Source: Asticcacaulis excentricus
GTDB taxonomy: Bacteria; Pseudomonadota; Alphaproteobacteria; Caulobacterales; Caulobacteraceae
Length of the DNA stretch: 64,000 bases
Assembly: GCF_003966695.1 (NCBI RefSeq)
Contig: NZ_AP018828.1
Span: 1-64,000 of the forward strand
Direction of reading: 5' to 3'
Shown: positions 28,882 to 56,740 of the stretch, piece after piece
How positions within the stretch are numbered: position 1 is the first letter of the stretch
Layout of the letters: the number at the start of each line of letters is the position of its first letter
Notes under the pieces: model-generated
Told to the model about the DNA's origin: nothing
The model's database searches: none
Seen by the model: only the letters and a program-made list of their open reading frames with translations
Program-made: the position numbers and the translations under genes

Positions 28882-29622
28882 TCAGGCAATCACCTTGCGG
28901 CGCAAGGCTTCGGCCACCGCGTGGGTGCGCCCGCGCACGCCCATCTTCTTCCCCGCCGACTTGGCATAGGTATAGATGGTATCGGTGGTGTAACCGGTCA
29001 CCTGATGGATGGCGGGCACCTCAAGACCATCGGCAAAGTGTTTGAGGCAGGCCAGTTCGCCGTCGGACAGGCCCAGATGCTGGTTCATGGCGCCGAGAAG
29101 CTGATCCGACAGTTCGGCGTGCACCACGCGCGTCGTCATTTCGAGGATGAATTTTTCGTGATCATTAAACGGCGTGGCCCGGCAGAAGGTCACGCCGCCG
29201 AAGCGGTGTTCACCATTGAAAAAACCGACGGCGCTGCGCGTCGTGATATCGAACTGCCGCTCCAGTTGCCGGATGCGCTCGACGCCGGGCCCGGTCAGCA
29301 CGTCGGGCCCCAGATCGTGCCAACTCCCCCAATGCTGCTCCGCCGTCATCAGGTAGGACATGGGGTCCTGATGATAGAGCTTTTCAGTGAGGAACAGGCG
29401 GATAAACGCTTCCGGCATATCCGAAGCCAGCATGACGCCACGCCCGACCCCCAGCCCGAAAAAAGCAAGACCCGACATGGCAAAGCTGTCGAAAGGCACG
29501 ATCTGGCGCAGGGTTTCCATCATCGGGTGCCGGGCGTGAGCGCGCCCGAACTGATTGGCGATCACTTCCATCGCCGCCTGCCGGGCGGGGTCCGCGACAC
29601 GCTTGGAGATATAGCTGGGCAT
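28882..29622 (-). CDS. orphan LuxR-family transcription regulator
   Basis: The protein has 246 residues. The N-terminal two-thirds (about 1-170) resembles an autoinducer-binding-type sensor fold, with MEVIANQFGRAHARHPMMET and WGSWHDLGPD. The C-terminal LuxR helix-turn-helix reads LSDGELACLKHFADGLEVPA, then TTDTIYTYAKSAGKKMGVRG, the latter in place of the usual V..H...I..KL. There is no luxI-type synthase in the window, so it would be a solo regulator answering an exogenous or unknown ligand. It stands alone, downstream of the esterase gene. Confidence 0.8.
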   Translation of the reverse strand: MPSYISKRVADPARQAAMEVIANQFGRAHARHPMMETLRQIVPFDSFAMSGLAFFGLGVGRGVMLASDMPEAFIRLFLTEKLYHQDPMSYLMTAEQHWGSWHDLGPDVLTGPGVERIRQLERQFDITTRSAVGFFNGEHRFGGVTFCRATPFNDHEKFILEMTTRVVHAELSDQLLGAMNQHLGLSDGELACLKHFADGLEVPAIHQVTGYTTDTIYTYAKSAGKKMGVRGRTHAVAEALRRKVIA

Positions 29623-29736: not shown

Positions 29737-30870
29737 TTATTTGCGCGCCTGGGTAAACAGCGTCGCCGACTCCGTCTGCGCCTTTTGCGCCTCAGGGACA
29801 TAGGCCGTGGTTTGCAGGAAGGCGTGGATCAGGCTGGGGTAGTGCAGGCGTTTGACCATCACCCCCGCCCCGCTCAGCTTGTCGGTAAAGGCGCGCTGTG
29901 AGTCTTTCAGCGGATCAAAGCCCGCCGTGACGATCACCGTAGCCGGCAGGCCTTTCAGGTCGGCCTGCATCGGGGAGGCGTCTTCAGCGGGCGGCGTCGT
30001 GCCGGCGGGATAGACCTGCGCCGCCAGATACTCCAGATTGTCGGCATCAAGCCCGTAGCCGCTGCCCAACTCCGTCATCGACGGATAGCTGTTCACCCGA
30101 TCCACCCCCGGATAGTAGAGCAGAAGCCCCGTTGGACGGACCGCCGCCTTTTTCTGTTTCAACGCCACCGACAGGGCCAAGGTGCCGCCCGCACTGTCGC
30201 CGCCGAGGCTCAGGCGTTTCATATCGCCGCCGAACTCTTTGGCGTGCGCGGCCACCCAAGTCCAGGCGTCTTCGGCGTCCTGATGCGCCGCCGGGTACGG
30301 GTGTTCAGGGGCCAGCCGATAGCCGGGGGCGACCACGATCATCTTCAGGTCGCGCGCCAGTGCCCGCAGGCTGGGGTCAAAGGCGTCCAGGCTGCCGAAC
30401 ATGAAGCCGCCGCCGTGATAATAGACCAGAACCGGGGCGGATTTGACGCCCTGCAAGGCCGCCGGGACGAAGATCCGCACGGGCAGGTCGCCGCCGCGCG
30501 TCGGGATGCTCCGGTCGCTGGCCAGTACGCCTTCGACCGGCGCAGTGCGCGTCGCCCAGTAGCGATCGAGCGCGGCGCGCGTGGCGTTACGCCCGGCCTC
30601 AGTGGCATAGACGGCGCGCATCTGCGCCTTGACGGCAGGCGTCGCCGCCGGGCGCGTCACGTTTTCCAGCACGTATTGCAGACGCGGATCGAGCGCGTGG
30701 CCTTCTGACACTTCGCGCGGCCCTTTGAGGTGGGCGATAAACCATGCCTCGTCCTGCTGCATGAAGGCGACGGCCTGCGCCTCGACAGGCGTCGGCACGA
30801 TGGGTTCAGCCGCCAGCGGCGTGGTCATAAGGCAGGCTCCGACGGTCAGCACAGGCAGCAGGTGTTTCAT
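29737..30870 (-). CDS. secreted alpha/beta-hydrolase esterase (hormone-sensitive lipase family)
   Basis: The protein has 377 residues with a signal peptide (MKHLLPVLTVGACLMTTPLAAEP). The oxyanion-hole motif VYYHGGGFMFGS and the nucleophile elbow LGGDSAGGTLALS define the HSL/GDSAG group. The Asp (ASPMQADLKGLPATVIVTAGFDPL) and the His (HAFLQTT) complete the triad. It probably hydrolyses short-chain esters in the periplasm. The palindrome at 30936-30951, shared with the TetR regulator and with the hydroxybutyrate genes, lies 65 bp upstream, which suggests common control. Its precise substrate is not known. Confidence 0.9.
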   Translation of the reverse strand: MKHLLPVLTVGACLMTTPLAAEPIVPTPVEAQAVAFMQQDEAWFIAHLKGPREVSEGHALDPRLQYVLENVTRPAATPAVKAQMRAVYATEAGRNATRAALDRYWATRTAPVEGVLASDRSIPTRGGDLPVRIFVPAALQGVKSAPVLVYYHGGGFMFGSLDAFDPSLRALARDLKMIVVAPGYRLAPEHPYPAAHQDAEDAWTWVAAHAKEFGGDMKRLSLGGDSAGGTLALSVALKQKKAAVRPTGLLLYYPGVDRVNSYPSMTELGSGYGLDADNLEYLAAQVYPAGTTPPAEDASPMQADLKGLPATVIVTAGFDPLKDSQRAFTDKLSGAGVMVKRLHYPSLIHAFLQTTAYVPEAQKAQTESATLFTQARK

Positions 30871-30935: not shown

Positions 30936-30951
30936 TTCAACAGCCGTGGAA
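30936..30951. promoter_or_regulatory. TetR-type palindrome, site 1 (ahead of the esterase)
   Basis: TTCAACAGCCGTGGAA matches site 3 (31820-31835) at 15 of 16 positions. It sits 1 bp after the stop of the TetR gene and about 65 bp upstream of the esterase start. Confidence 0.6.
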
Positions 30952-30952
30952 C

Positions 30953-31660
30953 TTACAGCGTGACGGCCGCCTTTGCGTGGTCTTCCATGGCCTGAAACGC
31001 CCCCAGATGAAAGCTGATCAGGTGCTCATAGGCGTCTTCGGCGTCGTCCGACCGGCAAAGCCCATTCGACAGGTGGTCGATGCGCCCGGTCGAGGCCATG
31101 GTCAGGGTCAAAGCCCCCGACAGGCAATGATAACCCCAGTACAGCTCGCGGTCAGCGACGTGCGGCAGGACGCGGCGCAGGGCGTCGATGAATTTGAGGA
31201 TCAGGCGGTCGAAATGCGTGGTCATCATCGGGGCCAGCACGCCCGACGAATTGACCTGCGCCACCAGCCGGCAATAGTTGCGAAAGCCCGGATCGGCGGC
31301 GGCGTGCATGGTCTGCACCGGCACGATAAAGGCGCGCAGGATCGACTCCAGCGTGGGCGCCTCTTCGCTTTCCAGCACCGCACGCAGCGCCGCCTCGCGC
31401 CGGTCATTGAGCACCAAAGCCCGCCGCCCGAAGACCGCGTCGTAGAGGCCTTGTTTGGACTCGAAATAGTAGTTGGGCAGGGCCACATCGACGCCCGCCG
31501 CCTGTGCCACCTGACGCACCGTCACCCCGTCAAACCCGTGCTGTGAGAACAGGGCCTCGGCCGCATCCAGCACCAGATCACGGCGCGAGGGCGCATCCGA
31601 CACCTTGCGGCGTCCCTTGGGGCTTTTGACGATCGGTTCAGGGACAGAGTCGGGCGGCAT
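30953..31660 (-). CDS. TetR-family regulator, probable controller of the esterase/hydroxybutyrate regulon
   Basis: The protein has 235 residues. A charged N-terminus of about 25 residues precedes the DNA-binding domain (LVLDAAEALFSQHGFDGVTV, RQVAQAAGVDVALPNYYFES). The C-terminal ligand domain (about 120-235) has the CecR/DUF1956-like pattern LPHVADRELYWGYHCLSGAL. It is divergent from the alpha/beta hydrolase gene; the gap has two palindromes of one type (31789-31804 and 31820-31835). A third lies just past its own stop and a fourth between the hydroxybutyrate dehydrogenase and CoA-transferase genes. Confidence 0.85.
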   Translation of the reverse strand: MPPDSVPEPIVKSPKGRRKVSDAPSRRDLVLDAAEALFSQHGFDGVTVRQVAQAAGVDVALPNYYFESKQGLYDAVFGRRALVLNDRREAALRAVLESEEAPTLESILRAFIVPVQTMHAAADPGFRNYCRLVAQVNSSGVLAPMMTTHFDRLILKFIDALRRVLPHVADRELYWGYHCLSGALTLTMASTGRIDHLSNGLCRSDDAEDAYEHLISFHLGAFQAMEDHAKAAVTL

Positions 31661-31788
31661 GTATCCACGGGATGAGATTCGATGATGGTTCCGTCTAACA
31701 CAGGCGCGCAGATGGCGAAAAGGAAAACGTTTTCCCTCCGTTCGTCTGCGAATACAGGGTGCGCCGATTTGGCCACAGCAGGGTTAAT

Positions 31789-31804
31789 TTCAACGGAAAT
31801 TGAA
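31789..31804. promoter_or_regulatory. TetR-type palindrome, site 2
   Basis: TTCAACGGAAATTGAA has the same TTCAAC/YTTGAA outer bases as sites 1, 3 and 4. It is 31 bp from site 3, about three helix turns, in the gap between the divergent TetR and hydrolase genes. Confidence 0.55.
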
Positions 31805-31813
31805 TTTAGCGGC

Positions 31814-31842
31814 TTGACATTCAACAGCCGTTGAAAAATCCT
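31814..31842 (+). promoter_or_regulatory. promoter with TetR-type palindrome (site 3) in its spacer
   Basis: TTGACA (31814-31819) is followed directly by the perfect palindrome TTCAACAGCCGTTGAA (31820-31835). A weak -10 candidate AATCCT begins at 31837. The operator would fill the -35/-10 spacer, a usual way for TetR proteins to block transcription. The hydrolase gene starts 64 bp downstream. Confidence 0.6.
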
Positions 31843-31906
31843 CTGACCACCGGCCCGCGCACAGAAGCCGGACCTACACGGGAAAAACAGCACAGGACAC
31901 AATGCC

Positions 31907-32797
31907 ATGTCGGCAGGGTTAACCTACGACGACGTGACCTATTACAGCGGCGCGGATTCGCTGGGCAGCGGACGCCTGAGCCTGTACGCCCGCGACTATA
32001 ACCCGACGGCTGAGCACGTGGTGATCTGCCTGCACGGCCTGACGCGCAACAGCGCCGATTTCGAGCCGCTGATGGCGCACCTGCCTGCCGATCATCGCTT
32101 TATCATCCCGGATCAGCGCGGGCGCGGGCGCTCGGACTATGACAGCGAACCGGCCCACTATGCGCTCGGCGTCTATGTGCAGGACATGCTGGCCCTGATG
32201 GCGCATCTGGGGGTGGAACGCGCCACCTTTATCGGTACGTCTATGGGCGGGCTGATCTCGATGCTGCTGGCGGCCACCGCGCCGCAGTCCGTGCGCGGCA
32301 TCGTGCTCAACGACATAGGCCCGAAGCTGTCGCCCGAAGGGCTGGAGCGCATCCGCGGCTATGTCGGCAAAGGGAAGCCGGTCGCCACCTGGGCTGATGC
32401 GGCGGAAAACACCCGCCTGATCAATGCCGAAGCCTTCCCCGGTTTCGGTCCTGACGACTGGCTGGCCTTTGCGCGCCGCACCCACGTGGAGGTCGCGGGC
32501 CGCCCTGTCCCCGCCTATGATCCGGCCATAGCGGCGGGCATGGCACCGGGCAGTCAGGCCGTCGCCCCGCCCGAACTGTGGGACCTGTGGGCCGGGCTGA
32601 AAGACATACCCGTCCTGGCTCTGCGCGGGGCCCTGTCCGACCTCCTGTCGGCGGAGACCTTGCAACGCATGGGCGACACCCACCCGCAGACGCGCACCGT
32701 CACCGTCCCCGACCGGGGCCACGCGCCCCTGCTGGACGAACCGGTGGCCCTGTCGGCCATCCAAGCCTTTTTGCGGGAACAGGCCCTGCGCCCCTGA
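31907..32797 (+). CDS. alpha/beta-fold hydrolase
   Basis: The protein has 296 residues and no signal peptide, so it is cytoplasmic. Motifs are CLHGLTRNSADFEPL (oxyanion hole), PDQRGRGRSDYDSE, the nucleophile elbow FIGTSMGGLISM, and the His in VTVPDRGHAPLLDE, all typical of epoxide-hydrolase/lactonase-like alpha/beta hydrolases. It probably cleaves an ester or lactone taken in by the receptor or carrier encoded downstream. Its promoter carries the TetR-type operator. The following TonB receptor gene is in the same direction 63 bp away. Confidence 0.88.
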   Translation: MSAGLTYDDVTYYSGADSLGSGRLSLYARDYNPTAEHVVICLHGLTRNSADFEPLMAHLPADHRFIIPDQRGRGRSDYDSEPAHYALGVYVQDMLALMAHLGVERATFIGTSMGGLISMLLAATAPQSVRGIVLNDIGPKLSPEGLERIRGYVGKGKPVATWADAAENTRLINAEAFPGFGPDDWLAFARRTHVEVAGRPVPAYDPAIAAGMAPGSQAVAPPELWDLWAGLKDIPVLALRGALSDLLSAETLQRMGDTHPQTRTVTVPDRGHAPLLDEPVALSAIQAFLREQALRP

Positions 32798-32860
32798 TCC
32801 GGGCGTTGGTCGCTGCCGCCTCAAGTATGCGTTTCAACTATAAACCTACAGGGAAACCCC

Positions 32861-35125
32861 ATGAAACAGACCTTCAAACCCTTGCTGATGGCCTCTGTGG
32901 CCAGCCTCGGCACCCTTCTCGGCCTCGCCGCGCCGCAGGCCTTTGCTCAAACCGCACCCCAGCCCGCCGCTTCCGCCGATGAGGTGACCGACGTCGTCGT
33001 CACCGCCCGTCGCCGCGCCGAAACCCTGAAAGACGTGCCGATCGCCGTCTCCACCTTCTCTTCGGCCAAGCTGGACCAGACCGGCGCACAGGACATCACC
33101 GCGCTTCAGCAACAAGCCCCCAACATGACGCTTCAGGTGGCGCGCGGCTCCAACTCGACCCTGATCGCCTTCATCCGCGGCGTGGGTCAGCAGGACCCGC
33201 TGTGGGGCTTTGAACCGGGCGTCGGCCTCTATGTCGATGACGTCTATGTGGCGCGTCCGCAAGGCGCCGTGCTCGACATCTATGATGTGCAGCGCGTCGA
33301 AGTGCTGCGCGGCCCGCAAGGCACCCTCTATGGCCGCAACACCATCGGCGGCGCCATCAAATACGTCACCAAGCCGCTGGACATGACCTCGCCCACCTTT
33401 ATGGCGCGCGGCTCGCTGGGCAGCTATAATCAACGCGACCTCGTCCTGACCGGCTCGATCCCCCTGACGGATCAGTTCGCCGTCGGCGCGGCGATTGCCA
33501 AATATAACCGTGACGGCTTCGGCAAGAACCTGTTCACCGGCGCCGAGCATTACAACAAGGACGTCACCGCGGTCCGCCTGAGCGCCGAATATAACCCGAC
33601 GGACAAGCTGTCGCTGCGTCTCGCCTATGACCGCACACAGGACGATTCCAACGCCCGTCACGGTCACCGCGAAACCACGGCCCTGAACTCCGCAGGCGGC
33701 CCGCTGTACACCGGCACGCAGGCCGTGTGGAACACGCCACCGGCCGATCCGTATGACACCTATGCGGGTCTGGGCGACAAGAACAAGGTCGAAACCGACG
33801 GCGTGTCGCTGACGGCGGAATACAAGATCTCGGACACGCTGACCTTCAAGTCGATCTCAGCCGTGCGTTCGGGTGAGACGGCGACGAAGATCGACTTCGA
33901 CAACACGCCGGGCGGCTTCATGGACGTGCCGGCCAAGTACGAAGACACGCAGGCCACGCAGGAACTTCAGTTCACCTATGGCGGCGAACGCTGGTCGTGG
34001 GTGGCCGGTCTCTTCTATCTCAACAGCACGGCCTCGGGCGCGTTCGACACCACCATCCTCGGTAATGCCGCCACCACCCTGACCCAGGGCAAGGTGCGCA
34101 CCAACTCCATCGCCGCCTTTGCCGACTTTAACTACAAGCTGACGGACAAGTGGTCGCTGTCGTTCGGCGGCCGCTACACCAAGGATAACAAGCGCGGCAC
34201 CGTCTATCGCGCCAACTATGCCGGGGCCCCCTCGCCCGTCTTCGGCGGCAAGGGTGCGGTGACGCTGCTGCGCTCAAACTACTCCAACGACAAATCGTTC
34301 GACAAGTTCACGCCACGCATCTCGCTGTCCTACGCCTTTACCCCGGCCCTGACTGGCTATGCGGCCATTTCCGAAGGCTTCAAGTCCGGTGGCTTCGACA
34401 TGCGCGGCGACGTTATCCTGACCCCCTCGACCGTCAATGGCTACAATCCGGAAACCGTCCTCAGCAAGGAAATCGGCCTGAAAGGCACCACCTTTGACGG
34501 CCTGATGAACTTCACCTTCGCTCTGTTCGACTCGAAGTACGACGACATGCAGATCACCCGTCAGACCCCGGTGGGCGCGACGGTGGCCTCTCAGGTCGAA
34601 AACGCCGGTAAGGCCTCGATCCGCGGCGCGGAATTCGAAGGGACGCTGCGCTTCTCAGACAAGCTGACCGGCAATTTCGCCCTCGGCTATACCGATGCCA
34701 AGTTCGACGAATTCATCAGCTACAACGTGCTGACCGCCTCTTACGTCAATCTGGCAGGTGTCTATAAGTTCCAGATGACGCCGGAATGGACCAATAATTT
34801 TGGCCTGACCTACAAGACGGACGCCTTTGGCGGCTCGCTGGTGGTGTCGCCGCAGGCCAGCTACCGCTCCGACATGCAGATGTTCGAAGCGGCCAATACC
34901 GCCCTCGATCAGAAGGCCTACTGGCTCTATGATATGGGCGTCACCTGGACCGCGCCGGGCGCCAAATACAAGGTCGGCCTCTATGGCCGCAACCTCGGCG
35001 ATGAGCGCTACCGCACGGGGGGCTATAACTTCCCCAGCAGCGTATCGCCGCTGTTCGGCAACTCGGTCTCGGCCTTCTACGGCGCGCCGCGCACCGTGAC
35101 CCTTACTCTGGAATATCGTTACTAA
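32861..35125 (+). CDS. TonB-dependent outer-membrane receptor
   Basis: The protein has 754 residues. A signal peptide (LMASVASLGTLLGLAAPQAFA) is followed by a TonB box-like segment (DVVVTARRR), the plug domain (FIRGVGQQDPLWGFEPGVGLY, VLRGPQGTLYGRNTIGGAIK), then the 22-strand barrel ending in a terminal aromatic strand (VTLTLEYRY). It imports a ligand with energy from TonB-ExbBD. The neighbours suggest an ester or small organic ligand rather than iron; I cannot tell which. It is followed by a strong terminator. Confidence 0.95.
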   Translation: MKQTFKPLLMASVASLGTLLGLAAPQAFAQTAPQPAASADEVTDVVVTARRRAETLKDVPIAVSTFSSAKLDQTGAQDITALQQQAPNMTLQVARGSNSTLIAFIRGVGQQDPLWGFEPGVGLYVDDVYVARPQGAVLDIYDVQRVEVLRGPQGTLYGRNTIGGAIKYVTKPLDMTSPTFMARGSLGSYNQRDLVLTGSIPLTDQFAVGAAIAKYNRDGFGKNLFTGAEHYNKDVTAVRLSAEYNPTDKLSLRLAYDRTQDDSNARHGHRETTALNSAGGPLYTGTQAVWNTPPADPYDTYAGLGDKNKVETDGVSLTAEYKISDTLTFKSISAVRSGETATKIDFDNTPGGFMDVPAKYEDTQATQELQFTYGGERWSWVAGLFYLNSTASGAFDTTILGNAATTLTQGKVRTNSIAAFADFNYKLTDKWSLSFGGRYTKDNKRGTVYRANYAGAPSPVFGGKGAVTLLRSNYSNDKSFDKFTPRISLSYAFTPALTGYAAISEGFKSGGFDMRGDVILTPSTVNGYNPETVLSKEIGLKGTTFDGLMNFTFALFDSKYDDMQITRQTPVGATVASQVENAGKASIRGAEFEGTLRFSDKLTGNFALGYTDAKFDEFISYNVLTASYVNLAGVYKFQMTPEWTNNFGLTYKTDAFGGSLVVSPQASYRSDMQMFEAANTALDQKAYWLYDMGVTWTAPGAKYKVGLYGRNLGDERYRTGGYNFPSSVSPLFGNSVSAFYGAPRTVTLTLEYRY

Positions 35126-35150
35126 GTAACGAATTAAGGTCTGTATCCTG

Positions 35151-35192
35151 ACCTCTCTCCCGTGACCCCCTACGGGAGAGAGGTTCTTTTTC
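35151..35192 (+). terminator. intrinsic terminator after the TonB receptor gene
   Basis: ACCTCTCTCCCGT and ACGGGAGAGAGGT form a perfect 13-bp stem around GACCCCCT, followed by TCTTTTT. It ends the hydrolase/receptor unit. Confidence 0.9.
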
Positions 35193-35246
35193 CGAGCGCA
35201 TTCGTCGGCTCAGTTGAGCCGCCGCATGGCTCTCATCTTTTGCAAC

Positions 35247-35303
35247 GCCTCATGTGTTTCCGAAAAGTGCCAAGAAAGTGTTTTGCACTTTTCGGCATGA
35301 GGC
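35247..35303. repeat. bulged hairpin element, copy 2 (ahead of the MFS gene)
   Basis: Outer stem GCCTCATG/CATGAGGC, a 5-nt left bulge TGTTT, and inner stem CCGAAAAGTGC/GCACTTTTCGG: 19 perfect base pairs in all around a 14-nt loop. It ends 1 nt before the Shine-Dalgarno AAGGG of the MFS gene. Layout equals the elements at 22816 and 56818, although the loop differs. Confidence 0.75.
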
Positions 35304-35316
35304 TAAGGGTCCACCC

Positions 35317-36582
35317 ATGTCCAGCCCCACCCCCGACGCGGCCCCGATCAAGGGGCGTTATCTGGCCCTGTTTGCCCTGATCGTCGTCTATACGTTCAAC
35401 TTCCTCGACCGGCAGATCATCTCGATCCTGAAAGACCCCATCGCGCAGGAACTGGGCCTCAGCGATACGCAACTGGGGCTGATGGGCGGGCTGGCCTTTG
35501 CGCTGCTCTACACCACCCTGGCCATTCCGGTGGCGTGGCTGGCCGACCGGACCTCGCGCGTGTGGATCATGACCACGGCTCTGGCCGTCTGGTCCGGCTT
35601 CACCGCCCTGTGCGGTCTGGCGCAGAACTTCACCCATCTGTTTATTGCCCGCATGGGCGTCGGCGTCGGCGAAGCGGGTGGCGTCGCCCCGGCCTACAGC
35701 CTGATTGCCGATTATTTTCCGCCGAAACAGCGGGCCAAGGCGCTGGCCATCTATTCGTTTGGTATTCCGGTGGGCTCCGCCGCCGGTGTGCTGTTCGGCG
35801 GGCTTCTGGCCGCGAAGGTGGACTGGCGATTTGCCTTTATCGCCATCGGGCTGGCGGGCATTCTGATCGCGCCGCTGTTCCGCCTGATGGTCAAGGACCC
35901 ACCGCGCGGACGCTATGACGCCGCTGCGGGCAAGCCGCTGGGCTTTATCGCTGCGTGCAAGCTGGCCTTCGCCAAGCCGACCTTCTGGCTCCTGTCGTTC
36001 GGGGCCGCCTGTTCGTCCATGGTCTCTTATGGTTTCATGTACTGGCTGCCGACCTTCCTGTCGCGCTCGCTGCACCTCGACCTCGTGTCGCGCTCATGGT
36101 TTCTGGCCGCCCTTCTGTTCATCGGCGGCGTGGCCGGCATGGCGCTGGGCGGCGTGCTGGGCGACAAGCTGGGGCAGAAGTCCAAGCGCGCCTATCCGCT
36201 CATCCCGTGCGTCGCCTTTATCATCTCGGTACCGCTCTACGCGCTGGGCGTGCTGGCCACCACGCCGGAGACAGCCTTTGCCCTGTTCCTGCTGCCGCAG
36301 GCGCTGGGCCTGATGTGGCTGGGCCCGGTGCTGACGGCGGTTCAGCATCTGGGGCCGGGCCATTCGCGCACCATGATCTCGTCGCTGTTCCTGCTGATCA
36401 ACAACCTGATCGGCATTGCGGTGGGGACGTGGTTCTTCGGTGCGGCGTCGGACTATCTGAAGCCCCTCTATGGCGACGCCTCGATCAAGTACGCCTTCCT
36501 GGCGGGCCTGAGCTTCTATGTGCTGGCGGCGATCCTGCTGTTCTTCGCCTCGCTGCGCATCCGCCGCGACTGGGTGGATTAG
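35317..36582 (+). CDS. MFS transporter (Spinster-like group)
   Basis: The protein has 421 residues from ATG 35317 with AAGGG upstream. An in-frame GTG at 35254 would put 21 residues of hairpin sequence in front and is unlikely. About 12 spans are present. Signatures are FNFLDRQIISIL in span 1, AWLADRTSRVWIM in the loop 2-3 region and GVGVGEAGGVAPAY in span 4/5. Members move organic acids, sugars or lipids. Its place between a TonB receptor and hydroxybutyrate genes suggests it imports the acid released by the hydrolases, but this is inference. Confidence 0.9.
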   Translation: MSSPTPDAAPIKGRYLALFALIVVYTFNFLDRQIISILKDPIAQELGLSDTQLGLMGGLAFALLYTTLAIPVAWLADRTSRVWIMTTALAVWSGFTALCGLAQNFTHLFIARMGVGVGEAGGVAPAYSLIADYFPPKQRAKALAIYSFGIPVGSAAGVLFGGLLAAKVDWRFAFIAIGLAGILIAPLFRLMVKDPPRGRYDAAAGKPLGFIAACKLAFAKPTFWLLSFGAACSSMVSYGFMYWLPTFLSRSLHLDLVSRSWFLAALLFIGGVAGMALGGVLGDKLGQKSKRAYPLIPCVAFIISVPLYALGVLATTPETAFALFLLPQALGLMWLGPVLTAVQHLGPGHSRTMISSLFLLINNLIGIAVGTWFFGAASDYLKPLYGDASIKYAFLAGLSFYVLAAILLFFASLRIRRDWVD

Positions 36583-36684
36583 ATCATCATGTTTAGCCCC
36601 TCACCGGGTGCGGCCTGCGCCACCTTGGCCGCCGCTGCAATGGCGGCTTGAGCGGAATGATTTTAGAAATCATCCCGCTCTAAT
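36583..36684. repeat. dispersed ~100-bp intergenic repeat, copy A (inverted orientation)
   Basis: The reverse complement reads AGAGCGGGATGATTTC, then AATCATTCCGCTCAAGCCGC, GGCGGCCAAGGTGGCG and GAGGGGCTAAACATGATGAT. Copies B (41844) and C (56625) match along the whole length. It begins right after the MFS stop codon and ends 2 bp before the convergent dehydrogenase stop. Confidence 0.85.
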
Positions 36685-36686
36685 AC

Positions 36687-37478
36687 CTACTGCGCGGTCC
36701 ATCCCCCGTCGATGGGGATGGCCGTCCCAGTCACATTGTGCGCCAGAGGCGAAGACAGCCACAGGGCCAGCGCTGCGATTTCCTCCGGGGCGCTCATGCG
36801 CTGCGACGGCTGTTTTTCAGCCAGAAGCGCGGCGATCCCTGCTTGACGATCCCCCCCGGCGGCCGCGGCGCGGGCCTGAATCTGCGGTTCGATCAGGGCC
36901 GTCTCGGTCCAGCCGGGGCACAGGCAGTTGATGGTCACGCCGGTGCGCGCATATTCGAGCGCCGCCACCTTCGACAGGCCGACCAACCCGAACTTCGAGG
37001 CCACATAGGGCCCCTTCTCCACCGAGGCGACAAGGCCGTGCACTGAGGCGATATTGATGACGCGCCCGAAGCCGCGCGCCGCCATACGCGGCAGGGCATA
37101 GCGCAGGGTGGCCATGCCCGCCGTCAGATTGACCGACAACACCGTATCCCAGGTGGCATCATCTATCTGGGCAAAGGGCAGGGTCTTCTGCACCCCGGCA
37201 TTGTTGATCAGTATGTCGATACCGCCGCCCCAGTTCCACACGGCCTCCATCAGGCCGTCAATGGCCGCCCGGTCGCGCAGATCGCCGTCGAAAAAGCGCA
37301 CCTGCGCCCCCAGACGGCGGATATGATCGGTGGCGGCATCAATCTGTTGCGGCGTCGCCAGCCCGTGCAGGGCGATATTGGCCCCAGCCCTGGCAAAGGC
37401 TTCGGCGATGGCCAGCCCTATGCCCTGAACGGAACCGGTGATCAGCGCGGTCCGCCCGCGAAGAGAAGCGTCGGTCAT
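36687..37478 (-). CDS. hbdH: 3-hydroxybutyrate dehydrogenase (SDR family)
   Basis: The protein has 263 residues from ATG 37478 (AGGGA 8 nt upstream); a longer start adds 11 residues. It shows TGSVQGIGLAIAEAFA (NAD-binding), LINNAGVQ, and the catalytic Ser-Tyr-Lys in NIASVHGLVASVEKGPYVAS with Lys in the following KFGLVG. The end (NVTGTAIPIDGGWTAQ) is typical of D-3-hydroxybutyrate dehydrogenases, which oxidise 3-hydroxybutyrate to acetoacetate. The neighbouring CoA-transferase is the next enzyme in that path. It is divergent from scoA, with palindrome site 4 between them. Confidence 0.88.
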   Translation of the reverse strand: MTDASLRGRTALITGSVQGIGLAIAEAFARAGANIALHGLATPQQIDAATDHIRRLGAQVRFFDGDLRDRAAIDGLMEAVWNWGGGIDILINNAGVQKTLPFAQIDDATWDTVLSVNLTAGMATLRYALPRMAARGFGRVINIASVHGLVASVEKGPYVASKFGLVGLSKVAALEYARTGVTINCLCPGWTETALIEPQIQARAAAAGGDRQAGIAALLAEKQPSQRMSAPEEIAALALWLSSPLAHNVTGTAIPIDGGWTAQ

Positions 37479-37568
37479 GGTGTGTGTCCCTGTTTTGGCC
37501 CTTCTGTGCACGGTGGCGGGGCTTCAGAGTTAACTATCGGCGGGCCGTCACAGGGGGTCAATAAAAAA

Positions 37569-37584
37569 TTCAACAATTGCTGAA
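37569..37584. promoter_or_regulatory. TetR-type palindrome, site 4 (between hbdH and scoA)
   Basis: TTCAACAATTGCTGAA has the outer half-sites TTCA/TGAA and TTCAAC of sites 1-3, with a different centre. It sits between two divergent genes of 3-hydroxybutyrate use, 91 bp from the hbdH start and 74 bp from scoA. Confidence 0.55.
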
Positions 37585-37657
37585 TTTTTTGCTCGCAAGG
37601 GGATGACAAACGGCACCGGAGTGCGTAGGAATGAGCAAAAATATAAGGGAGAGACCG

Positions 37658-38365
37658 ATGCCGTCGAAGATATATGCGGACGCGAAGAGTGCGCTGGAGG
37701 GGCTGACGTTTGACGGGATGACGGTGATGGCCGGAGGCTTTGGCCTGTGCGGCATCCCGGAGAACCTGATCGCCGCGCTGCGTGACTCAGGCGTGACCGG
37801 GATCACCGCCATTTCCAACAATGCCGGGGTCGATGGCTTCGGGCTGGGGATGCTGCTCAACACCCGTCAGATCAAAAAGATGATCTCGTCCTATGTCGGC
37901 GAAAACAAGGAGTTCGAGCGGCAGTATCTGGCGGGCGAGTTGGAGCTGGAGTTCAATCCGCAGGGCACCCTGGCCGAACGCATTCGCGCCGGCGGGGCCG
38001 GGATTCCGGGCTTCTACACCGCCACCGGCGTCGGCACGCTGGTCGCCGAGGGCAAAGAACTGAAAGACTTCAACGGCAAGACCTATGTGCTGGAGACGGG
38101 TCTGGTCGCTGACCTCTCGATCGTCAAGGCGTGGAAGGCCGATGAGCGCGGCAACCTGATCTTCCGCAAGACGGCGCGCAATTTCAACCCGATGATGGCC
38201 ACCGCCGGCAAGGTCTGCGTCGCCGAGGTTGAGGAAATCGTGCCGGTGGGCTCGCTCGACCCCGACGCCATCCACACGCCCGGCATCTATGTTGACCGTA
38301 TCGTGCAGGGCACGTTCGAGAAACGCATCGAACAGCGCACCGTGCGTCAGAGAGAAGGCGCCTGA
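37658..38365 (+). CDS. scoA: 3-oxoacid CoA-transferase, subunit A
   Basis: The protein has 235 residues from ATG 37658, which has a perfect AAGGGAGAG; ATG 37631 is in frame but its TAGGA is too close. Family motifs include [18 protein letters not shown] near the N-terminus, [13 protein letters not shown] and [20 protein letters not shown]. With ScoB it moves CoA from succinyl-CoA to acetoacetate, feeding the thiolase step. It is the first gene of the scoAB pair and is divergent from the hydroxybutyrate dehydrogenase gene. Confidence 0.95.
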
Positions 38366-38367
38366 TC

Positions 38368-38475
38368 ATGCCCTGGACACGTGACCAACTGGCCGATCAG
38401 CGCTCAAGCAGCGAAGCGGTAGCGCAACAAAAAATGCGCGAGGCCTGCCCGGCGCACCTTGTTTTGGAGTTTTAA
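38368..38475 (+). pseudogene. partial duplicate of the scoB 5' end (35-codon mini-ORF)
   Basis: ATG 38368 is followed by CCCTGGACACGTGACCAACT, matching the true scoB start at 38478 with one change over about 33 bases (TGATC/TAATC before the ATG too). After MPWTRDQLAD the sequence diverges, but stays open to TAA 38473-38475, ending just 2 bp before the scoB ATG. The stretch therefore looks like a partial tandem duplication wedged between scoA and scoB. Whether the 35-residue peptide is made is unknown. Confidence 0.75.
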
Positions 38476-38477
38476 TC

Positions 38478-39125
38478 ATGCCCTGGACACGCGACCAACT
38501 GGCCGAGCGCGCGGCTAAAGAACTTCAGGACGGTTTCTACGTCAATCTGGGCATCGGCATCCCGACTCTGGTGGCCAATCACATCCCGCAGGGCATGACC
38601 GTCACCTTTCAGTCGGAAAACGGTATGCTGGGCATGGGCCCCTTCCCGTATGAGGATGAGGTCGATCCCGACCTGATCAATGCGGGTAAGCAGACCATCA
38701 CCGAACTGCCCGAAACCAGCTATTTTTCGTCAGCGGACTCGTTCGCCATGATCCGCGGCGGGCATATCGACCTGACCATATTGGGGGCGATGGAGGTGGC
38801 CGAAAACGGCGACATCGCCAACTGGATGATACCGGGCAAGCTGGTCAAGGGCATGGGCGGGGCGATGGACCTCGTCGCCGGGGTGCAGAAGGTCGTGGTC
38901 GTTATGGAACACGCCAACAAGCACGGCGAGTCCAAGGTGCTGAAACGCTGCGACCTGCCGCTGACCGGGGCGGGCGTGGTCGATCTGATCATCTCGACGC
39001 TCGGCGTGTTTGAGGTCAAGCCCGATGGCTCAGGCCTTGTGCTGGTCGAACTGGCCCCCGATGTCACCCTCGACGACATCGCCGCCCAGACACAGGCCAC
39101 CTATGAGGTGGCGCTGCGGGCGTAA
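38478..39125 (+). CDS. scoB: 3-oxoacid CoA-transferase, subunit B
   Basis: The protein has 215 residues. It has VNLGIGIPTLVANHIP, the catalytic Glu in SENGMLGMGPFP, and FSSADSFAMIRGGHIDL and WMIPGKLVKGMGGAMDLVAG, all typical of the beta subunit. It pairs with ScoA. Most genomes have the two genes abutting or overlapping; here 112 bp with a duplicated gene fragment separate them. Confidence 0.95.
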   Translation: MPWTRDQLAERAAKELQDGFYVNLGIGIPTLVANHIPQGMTVTFQSENGMLGMGPFPYEDEVDPDLINAGKQTITELPETSYFSSADSFAMIRGGHIDLTILGAMEVAENGDIANWMIPGKLVKGMGGAMDLVAGVQKVVVVMEHANKHGESKVLKRCDLPLTGAGVVDLIISTLGVFEVKPDGSGLVLVELAPDVTLDDIAAQTQATYEVALRA

Positions 39126-41843: not shown

Positions 41844-41944
41844 TAGAGCGAAATGATTTCTAGTGGAATCATTTCGCTCAAGCCGCCTTTGAGGCGGCGG
41901 CCAAGGTGGCGGATCCGCCGCCCGGCGAGGGCCAAACATAATGA
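41844..41944. repeat. dispersed ~100-bp intergenic repeat, copy B
   Basis: AGAGCGAAATGATTTC, GGAATCATTTCGCTCAAGCC, GGCGGCGGCCAAGGTGGCGG, then CCGCCCGGCGAGGG and AAACATAATGAT align with copies A and C. The start of the element is itself a palindrome (GAAATGATT/AATCATTTC). Confidence 0.85.
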
Positions 41945-56626: not shown

Positions 56627-56740
56627 AGCGGGATGATTTTGGAGCGGAATGATTTCCAATGGAATCATTCCGCTCAAGCCGCCATTGAGGCGGCGGCCAA
56701 GGTGGCGAAGCCACCGCCCGGCGAGGGGCTAAACAAAAAT
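56625..56740. repeat. dispersed ~100-bp intergenic repeat, copy C (extended)
   Basis: AGAGCGGGATGATTTTGGAG, CGGAATGATTTCCAATGGAA, TCATTCCGCTCAAGCCGCCA, GGCGGCCAAGGTGGCGAAGC and GGCGAGGGGCTAAAC match copies A and B. It starts on the dctD stop codon. A further 70 bp (56741-56811) hold ATGTTTCCA/TGGAAACAT and CATTATG/CATAATG inverted repeats not found in the other copies. No gene is visible in 56627-56862. Confidence 0.85.

Follow-up and report, generated by a model that had tools for sequence, protein, structure and literature searches.

Do the four matching palindromes found between a secreted esterase gene and a pair of CoA-transferase genes in Asticcacaulis excentricus mark a single regulon, and if so, what is it for? 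They lie in a stretch of 64,000 nucleotides (NCBI assembly GCF_003966695.1, contig NZ_AP018828.1, positions 1 to 64,000 of the forward strand; hereafter the window) on the 1.08 Mb second contig of a 3.79 Mb genome. A first-pass annotation of the window had proposed that they join a secreted esterase, a TetR regulator, an intracellular hydrolase, a TonB receptor, a major facilitator superfamily (MFS) carrier, 3-hydroxybutyrate dehydrogenase and scoAB under common control. We consider it very probable that the TetR protein is an autoregulated repressor of the TetR_C_30 type that governs the use of extracellular 3-hydroxybutyrate (3HB) oligomers and polyhydroxybutyrate (PHB), occluding promoters at TTCAAC-RNNY-GTTGAA until relieved by an inducer. 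The case is carried by the sites themselves and by the way they are conserved, relocate together with target genes, track the recognition helix of the regulator and accompany PHB depolymerase genes, all of them patterns read from sequence.

A search with TTCAACN4GTTGAA returned all four palindromes at the positions first reported:

30936..30951: operator O1, TTCAACAGCCGTGGAA, one mismatch; 1 bp beyond the tetR stop and 65 bp ahead of the ATG of the secreted esterase gene, upstream of which it is kept in four Asticcacaulis orthologues.
31789..31804: operator O2, TTCAACGGAAATTGAA, one mismatch; in the tetR-hydrolase intergenic region, probably over the tetR promoter, its centre 31 bp from that of O3.
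31820..31835: operator O3, perfect palindrome TTCAACAGCCGTTGAA; in the same intergenic region, directly after the TTGACA (31814-31819) of the hydrolase promoter.
37569..37584: operator O4, TTCAACAATTGCTGAA, one mismatch; between the 3-hydroxybutyrate dehydrogenase gene and scoA.

All other matches in the window have three mismatches, leaving these four alone below that number; from base composition, only about 0.04 sites this close to the pattern (no more than one mismatch) would be expected in 64 kb. The whole genome holds eight such sites (one perfect, seven with one mismatch), four of them within a single 6.65 kb stretch of the window; eight sites placed at random would bring four this close about 1.5e-6 of the time, and the palindromes are not similarly dense elsewhere in the genome. 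All four are intergenic. O3 comprises the 16 bases immediately 3' of TTGACA, just as the annotation had described, and a dimer bound there would therefore block RNA polymerase; the -10 element of this promoter is weak, and the promoter scan gave it no score. Together, O2 and O3 are palindromes over the predicted promoter of tetR itself and the predicted divergent promoter of the hydrolase gene, an arrangement that is conserved.

The sites are kept upstream of orthologues in related genomes. Four close Asticcacaulis genomes, in which TetR is 97% identical, retain them, and four more, with TetR at about 60-63% identity, have a tetR-hydrolase intergenic region containing two operators about 28-29 bp apart; in these relatives at about 60% identity TTGACA directly precedes one operator, although alignment has been lost over the remainder of the region. 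The surrounding gene order is fluid: the dehydrogenase gene lies behind the hydrolase gene in AC466, and AC460 and AC402 keep hydrolase and dehydrogenase together without the receptor and MFS genes. The sites also follow the target genes to other places in the genome. Unlinked scoA has a one-mismatch site upstream in A. biprosthecium (L089), AC460 (L085) and AC402 (L086), and unlinked esterase orthologues have a site upstream in A. biprosthecium (L087) and AC402 (L092). In the A. excentricus-like genome G104, which has two scoAB copies, only the copy within the cluster has a site. Across the genus, a site precedes scoA in eight of nine Asticcacaulis that encode the TetR and, with fewer than three mismatches allowed, in none of 16 in which the TetR was not detectable (Fisher 8e-6, ignoring the relatedness of the genomes). 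The gene for methylisocitrate lyase, prpB, whose product acts in propionate breakdown, also has a perfect site upstream in A. biprosthecium, AC460 and AC402 (L082:8686, L083:8555 and L084:8358). Upstream of prpB and phaC in the window genome, and of prpB in its close relatives, no site was found, nor was one found at type-1-like esterase genes that exceed the TIGR01840 cut-off in three Asticcacaulis. Control of prpB would fit the use of 3-hydroxyvalerate (3HV) units, which end as propionyl-CoA.

The operator extends well beyond the genus, into distant bacteria of both marine and freshwater origin. Perfect palindromes occur beside TetR, hydrolase or receptor genes in Ponticaulis, Hyphomonadaceae, Robiginitomaculum, Kordiimonas, Luminiphilus, Halieaceae and other Gammaproteobacteria, and orthologues of the TonB receptor gene have the operator upstream in Ponticaulis, Kordiimonas and Gammaproteobacteria. 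Twelve relatives contain 33 perfect sites versus one match to a reversed control pattern, and paired operators in relatives are mostly 26-33 bp apart. The orthologues of Asticcacaulis, Hyphomonadaceae, Kordiimonas and Gammaproteobacteria have in common the consensus TTCAAC-RNNY-GTTGAA: in 68 different sites, two spacer positions that the pattern had left free are purine and pyrimidine in 98%, and the flanks are A/T. This R..Y preference lies outside the search pattern and is what a true binding motif should show. Three of the other four sites in the window genome with at most one mismatch violate this spacer rule and lie in or beside unrelated genes. The fourth (C2:732203, L008; TTCAAAATGCGTTGAA) is intergenic, fits the rule and is retained in G129. 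Among the perfect sites of G199 and G206, three were set aside as chance occurrences, as they have no plausible target, two are intragenic, and they violate the spacer rule.

Possession of the operator also tracks the DNA-reading part of the regulator. The TetR of the window has a TetR_N helix-turn-helix (PF00440, 53.5 bits, cut-off 24) with the recognition helix VDVALPNYYF, and a TetR_C_30 domain (PF17939, 108.4 bits, cut-off 26.3). Its closest solved structures by sequence are NicR (5fgl, 2.4e-16) and 2fbq; a plasmid search with the protein returned only matches below 60% identity. Scanning the named genomes with a TetR alignment gave 80 loci, in which a site was scored as present if the locus DNA examined contained one, at whatever position, with no more than a single mismatch. 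By this measure a site is present in 27 of 28 loci with the recognition helix VD[VL]AL and in 0 of 52 with VDTAL (Brevundimonas, Phenylobacterium and their relatives). A maximum-likelihood tree groups the site-bearing TetRs in a clade of 28 rows (support 100/99), 27 of which have sites, Henriciella being the sole member without one in the DNA examined; rows and loci are related by descent, and these counts are not independent events. The sister clade from Brevundimonas and Phenylobacterium (L108-L171, VDTAL) is itself found beside TonB receptor and MFS genes that are 50-60% identical to those of the window, and a search of its upstream regions for a common palindrome gave no consensus.

The genes that these sites would control in the window are as follows:

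30953..31660, minus strand: tetR, TetR_C_30 regulator resembling PsrA and NicR2, predicted to repress the regulon as well as its own gene.
29737..30870, minus strand: secreted esterase, Abhydrolase_3 or hormone-sensitive lipase (HSL) type with a hydrophobic N-terminal leader (PF07859, 199 bits).
31907..32797, plus strand: cytoplasmic alpha/beta hydrolase (PF00561), candidate 3HB-oligomer hydrolase of the PhaZc/PhaY kind.
32861..35125, plus strand: TonB-dependent outer-membrane receptor (PF00593, PF07715), candidate oligomer importer.
35317..36582, plus strand: MFS transporter (PF07690, 176 bits), candidate inner-membrane carrier.
36687..37478, minus strand: 3-hydroxybutyrate dehydrogenase, a short-chain dehydrogenase/reductase (SDR; NF009093, 263.9 bits, cut-off 258).
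37658..38365, plus strand: scoA, 3-oxoacid CoA-transferase (SCOT) subunit A (TIGR02429, 261 bits, cut-off 128.5), with an alternative start at 37631.
38478..39125, plus strand: scoB, SCOT subunit B (TIGR02428, 323.5 bits, cut-off 243.6).

Family searches bear out the identities first assigned to these genes, with one reservation: sequence places the 'intracellular hydrolase' and the secreted esterase no more precisely than as generic alpha/beta hydrolases. The esterase scores under the cut-off of the LipP1 family. In the hydrolase, GTSMGG (a GxSxG serine hydrolase motif) and the acid and histidine are invariant across ten orthologues, and the nearest solved structure is 3bwx, itself of no known function. 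The best solved relatives of the dehydrogenase are all 3-hydroxybutyrate dehydrogenases; it scores 264.6 bits against TIGR01963, short of the cut-off of 307, and all five substrate-binding residues align (Q94, H144, K152, W187 and Q196 in the solved enzymes). For scoA, the start at 37658, behind AAGGGAGAGA, is more likely than that at 37631. The start of scoB is duplicated, with ATCATGCCCTGGACACG(T/C)GACCAACTGGCCGA occurring at 38365 and 38475 in copies that are 97% identical, the first of which leads into a short insert (CAGCGCTCAAGCAGCGAAGCGGTAGCGC...) and then a stop (window 38365-38506). In AC402 (L086) the scoA-scoB gap shows a comparable duplication of the start, with an insert related to this one; G104 has none. 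The feature resembles a small, mobile palindromic element that targets this position. Next to the esterase gene lies one for a LuxR-type regulator (28882-29622), which has an autoinducer-binding domain. Elsewhere in the window, a 70-nt intergenic element is present in inverted copies at 36593-36662 and 41867-41936 (81% complementary), with a third, partial copy at about 56663-56690 and pieces in related Asticcacaulis loci.

What the regulon serves is most readily judged from its contents in other lineages. Among Gammaproteobacteria the operator precedes genes for extracellular PHB depolymerases of both type-1 and PhaZ7-like kinds. One type-1 depolymerase gene, at a distance from the TetR locus, is preceded by two perfect sites and its product passes NF050058 (L198; the same gene as L261), and a second, adjoining tetR, has two sites (L111). 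Against the NF050058 cut-off of 150 bits, scores were 171.2 for L111, 168.7 for L101, 177.9 for G204, 173.6 for G205 and 172.2 for G200. A secreted homologue of PhaZ7 (L191; 2vtv, E 8.1e-114 over residues 36-368), in which HSMGVSM, of the catalytic serine region of PhaZ7, and GVGHF are kept, likewise has two perfect sites. In two Kordiimonas-type genomes sodium:solute symporters (SSS; L195 and L196) have the site in place of the MFS carrier; an SDR gene divergent from phaB and phaC has it as well (L192); and in Kordiimonas and Gammaproteobacteria the receptor-hydrolase operon includes an acyl-CoA ligase where Asticcacaulis has SCOT under the operator. A given step would thus be taken by one or another of two unrelated proteins (MFS or symporter, SCOT or ligase, esterase or depolymerase), all sharing a single operator, and this points to 3HB oligomers derived from PHB. 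These genes, along with the unlinked scoAB of other Asticcacaulis, give independent support to the route sketched in the first-pass annotation, in which esters outside the cell are taken by way of acetoacetate to acetoacetyl-CoA.

We hypothesize that a TetR dimer binds TTCAAC-RNNY-GTTGAA ahead of genes for the use of extracellular 3HB oligomers or esters, the breakdown products of PHB. When substrate is lacking, O3 would be occupied within the -35/-10 spacer of the hydrolase-receptor promoter and its partner O2 would cover the tetR side, with O1 and O4 acting likewise on the promoters of the secreted esterase and of the dehydrogenase and scoAB. After oligomers have entered, the repressor may be released by one of their breakdown products, whether 3HB, an oligomer or a derived acyl-CoA. 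The route would run from the secreted esterase, or in other species an extracellular PHB depolymerase, through the TonB receptor and the MFS carrier or symporter to the intracellular hydrolase, and would end with 3-hydroxybutyrate dehydrogenase and then SCOT, yielding acetoacetyl-CoA. For the window organism itself the substrate is an inference, since its genome yielded no canonical depolymerase; a gene for a PhaC-type synthase is present, and the organism may use its own secreted esterase or scavenge oligomers that others release.

Several observations weigh against this account. The window genome has neither a type-1 PHB depolymerase above the family cut-off (among the genes scored with the related model TIGR01840) nor a PhaZ7 homologue, only three of 12 site-bearing relatives encode a type-1 depolymerase, and in G204 a second such gene (L265) has no site. 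The cytoplasmic hydrolase scores only 65.3 bits against the model of intracellular short-chain polyhydroxyalkanoate (PHA) depolymerases (NF050089, cut-off 300), and in Gammaproteobacteria the SDR resembles FabG (PRK08217) instead of the canonical 3-hydroxybutyrate dehydrogenases. At the level of the sites, O1, O2 and O4 are each imperfect, O2 also violates the spacer rule, and scoA of G114 has no site despite two perfect ones at its TetR locus. Some of these points would be accommodated if the regulon were real but devoted to another ester or short-chain hydroxyacid, such as plant or microbial acyl esters, polyesters rich in 3HV or acetoacetate esters, with the depolymerase link a lineage-specific addition in Gammaproteobacteria. 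The generic nature of the alpha/beta hydrolases and the lack of a canonical depolymerase in the window genome would suit this, as would prpB in the regulon of three Asticcacaulis, which implies a source of propionyl-CoA such as 3HV. A copolymer of 3HB and 3HV, however, explains prpB with no further substrate, the 3HB-like chemistry is constant across lineages (3-hydroxybutyrate dehydrogenase with SCOT, or ligase with symporter), and depolymerase genes come with paired perfect sites; we therefore regard another substrate as unlikely, although it is the strongest of the alternatives.

The mode of action and the breadth of the regulon allow two further readings. Sites often come in pairs with a spacing of about 26-33 bp, close to whole turns of the helix, and PsrA activates at rpoS (PMC13104628), so that TetR might bind as an activator or through DNA looping instead of by promoter occlusion. 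The main site, however, directly follows TTGACA and fills the spacer in distant relatives too, the classic position of a repressor, and we think activation or looping rather improbable. More improbable still, by a little, is that the protein senses fatty acids or acyl-CoA in the manner of PsrA and has a broader lipid-ester regulon of which the 3HB genes are one branch. It does have a C-terminal domain family in common with PsrA, whose operator, TTCAAACN4GTTTGAA, is related (PMC13104628), and its regulon includes a secreted HSL-type esterase; yet it scores only 92.1 bits against the NCBIfam PsrA equivalog (NF053516, cut-off 300), its half-sites are one base shorter, and no beta-oxidation gene adjoins any site whose neighbours were read. 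That the palindromes are chance features of AT-richer intergenic DNA might be argued from the single perfect site among the four and the further one-mismatch sites elsewhere in the genome, but this is refuted by conservation, relocation with genes, the spacer rule, the recognition-helix coupling and the TetR-less control, and we give it almost no credence.

The proposed repressor of 3HB-oligomer use is distinct from the regulators that it most resembles. By sequence its best solved-structure match is the NicR2-type nicotine regulator (5fgl), which governs nicotine catabolism and has a different operator and different targets. HbcR and AtoC govern genes for 3-hydroxybutyrate dehydrogenase or acetoacetate CoA-transferase, as is proposed for the TetR described here, but they are sigma-54 enhancer-binding activators with no known receptor or depolymerase link. 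The closest known operator is that of Pseudomonas PsrA at rpoS (PMC13104628). PsrA is likewise a promoter-blocking TetR-family protein with a TetR_C_30-type ligand domain, and both palindromes have the form TTCAA...TTGAA around four central bases; here, however, the whole site is 16 bp instead of 18 bp, the spacer follows the R..Y rule, and the regulon comprises 3HB and PHB uptake and catabolism in place of fatty-acid beta-oxidation, rpoS and virulence. PhaD of Pseudomonas putida is also a TetR-family regulator in PHA metabolism, with a carbon-source metabolite as its proposed ligand, but by its description it activates phaC1ZC2D and phaIF, genes of intracellular medium-chain PHA synthesis and turnover (PMC7204398), whereas the TetR described here is linked to uptake from outside and to short-chain 3HB catabolism. 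PHB-granule regulators of the PhaR/AniA type are not TetR proteins and sense the intracellular polymer granule. What they have in common with the TetR described here is the control of PHB metabolism genes (PMC12542648). The open-access literature gave no description of a regulator with this gene set or operator, and none linking depolymerase, TonB and TetR, in line with the annotators' remark that they knew of no TetR-controlled system of this kind.

To our knowledge, and in the literature searched, there is no account of a dedicated transcription factor for extracellular PHB depolymerases or of TonB-dependent uptake of 3HB oligomers. We think it probable, if less firmly than we hold the repressor itself, that the sites belong to a widespread and undescribed TetR regulon for scavenging PHB and 3HB oligomers in Alpha- and Gammaproteobacteria, with TonB-dependent oligomer import, some members of which make a depolymerase while others only scavenge. 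Since regulator, operator and targets can be named, direct testing is possible, and a repressor-operator pair linked to 3HB is a potential sensor. Kordiimonas, a genus with this regulon, has been listed among the bacteria of seawater biofilms on films of poly(3-hydroxybutyrate-co-3-hydroxyhexanoate) (PHBH; PMC5877338), and the regulon may bear on what becomes of PHA bioplastics, and of a natural storage polymer of major importance, in water. The operator would provide a DNA signature for PHB-using bacteria, including oligomer scavengers with no depolymerase of their own, and, if the proposal is correct, the cluster would constitute a 'polyester utilisation locus', analogous to the polysaccharide utilisation loci.

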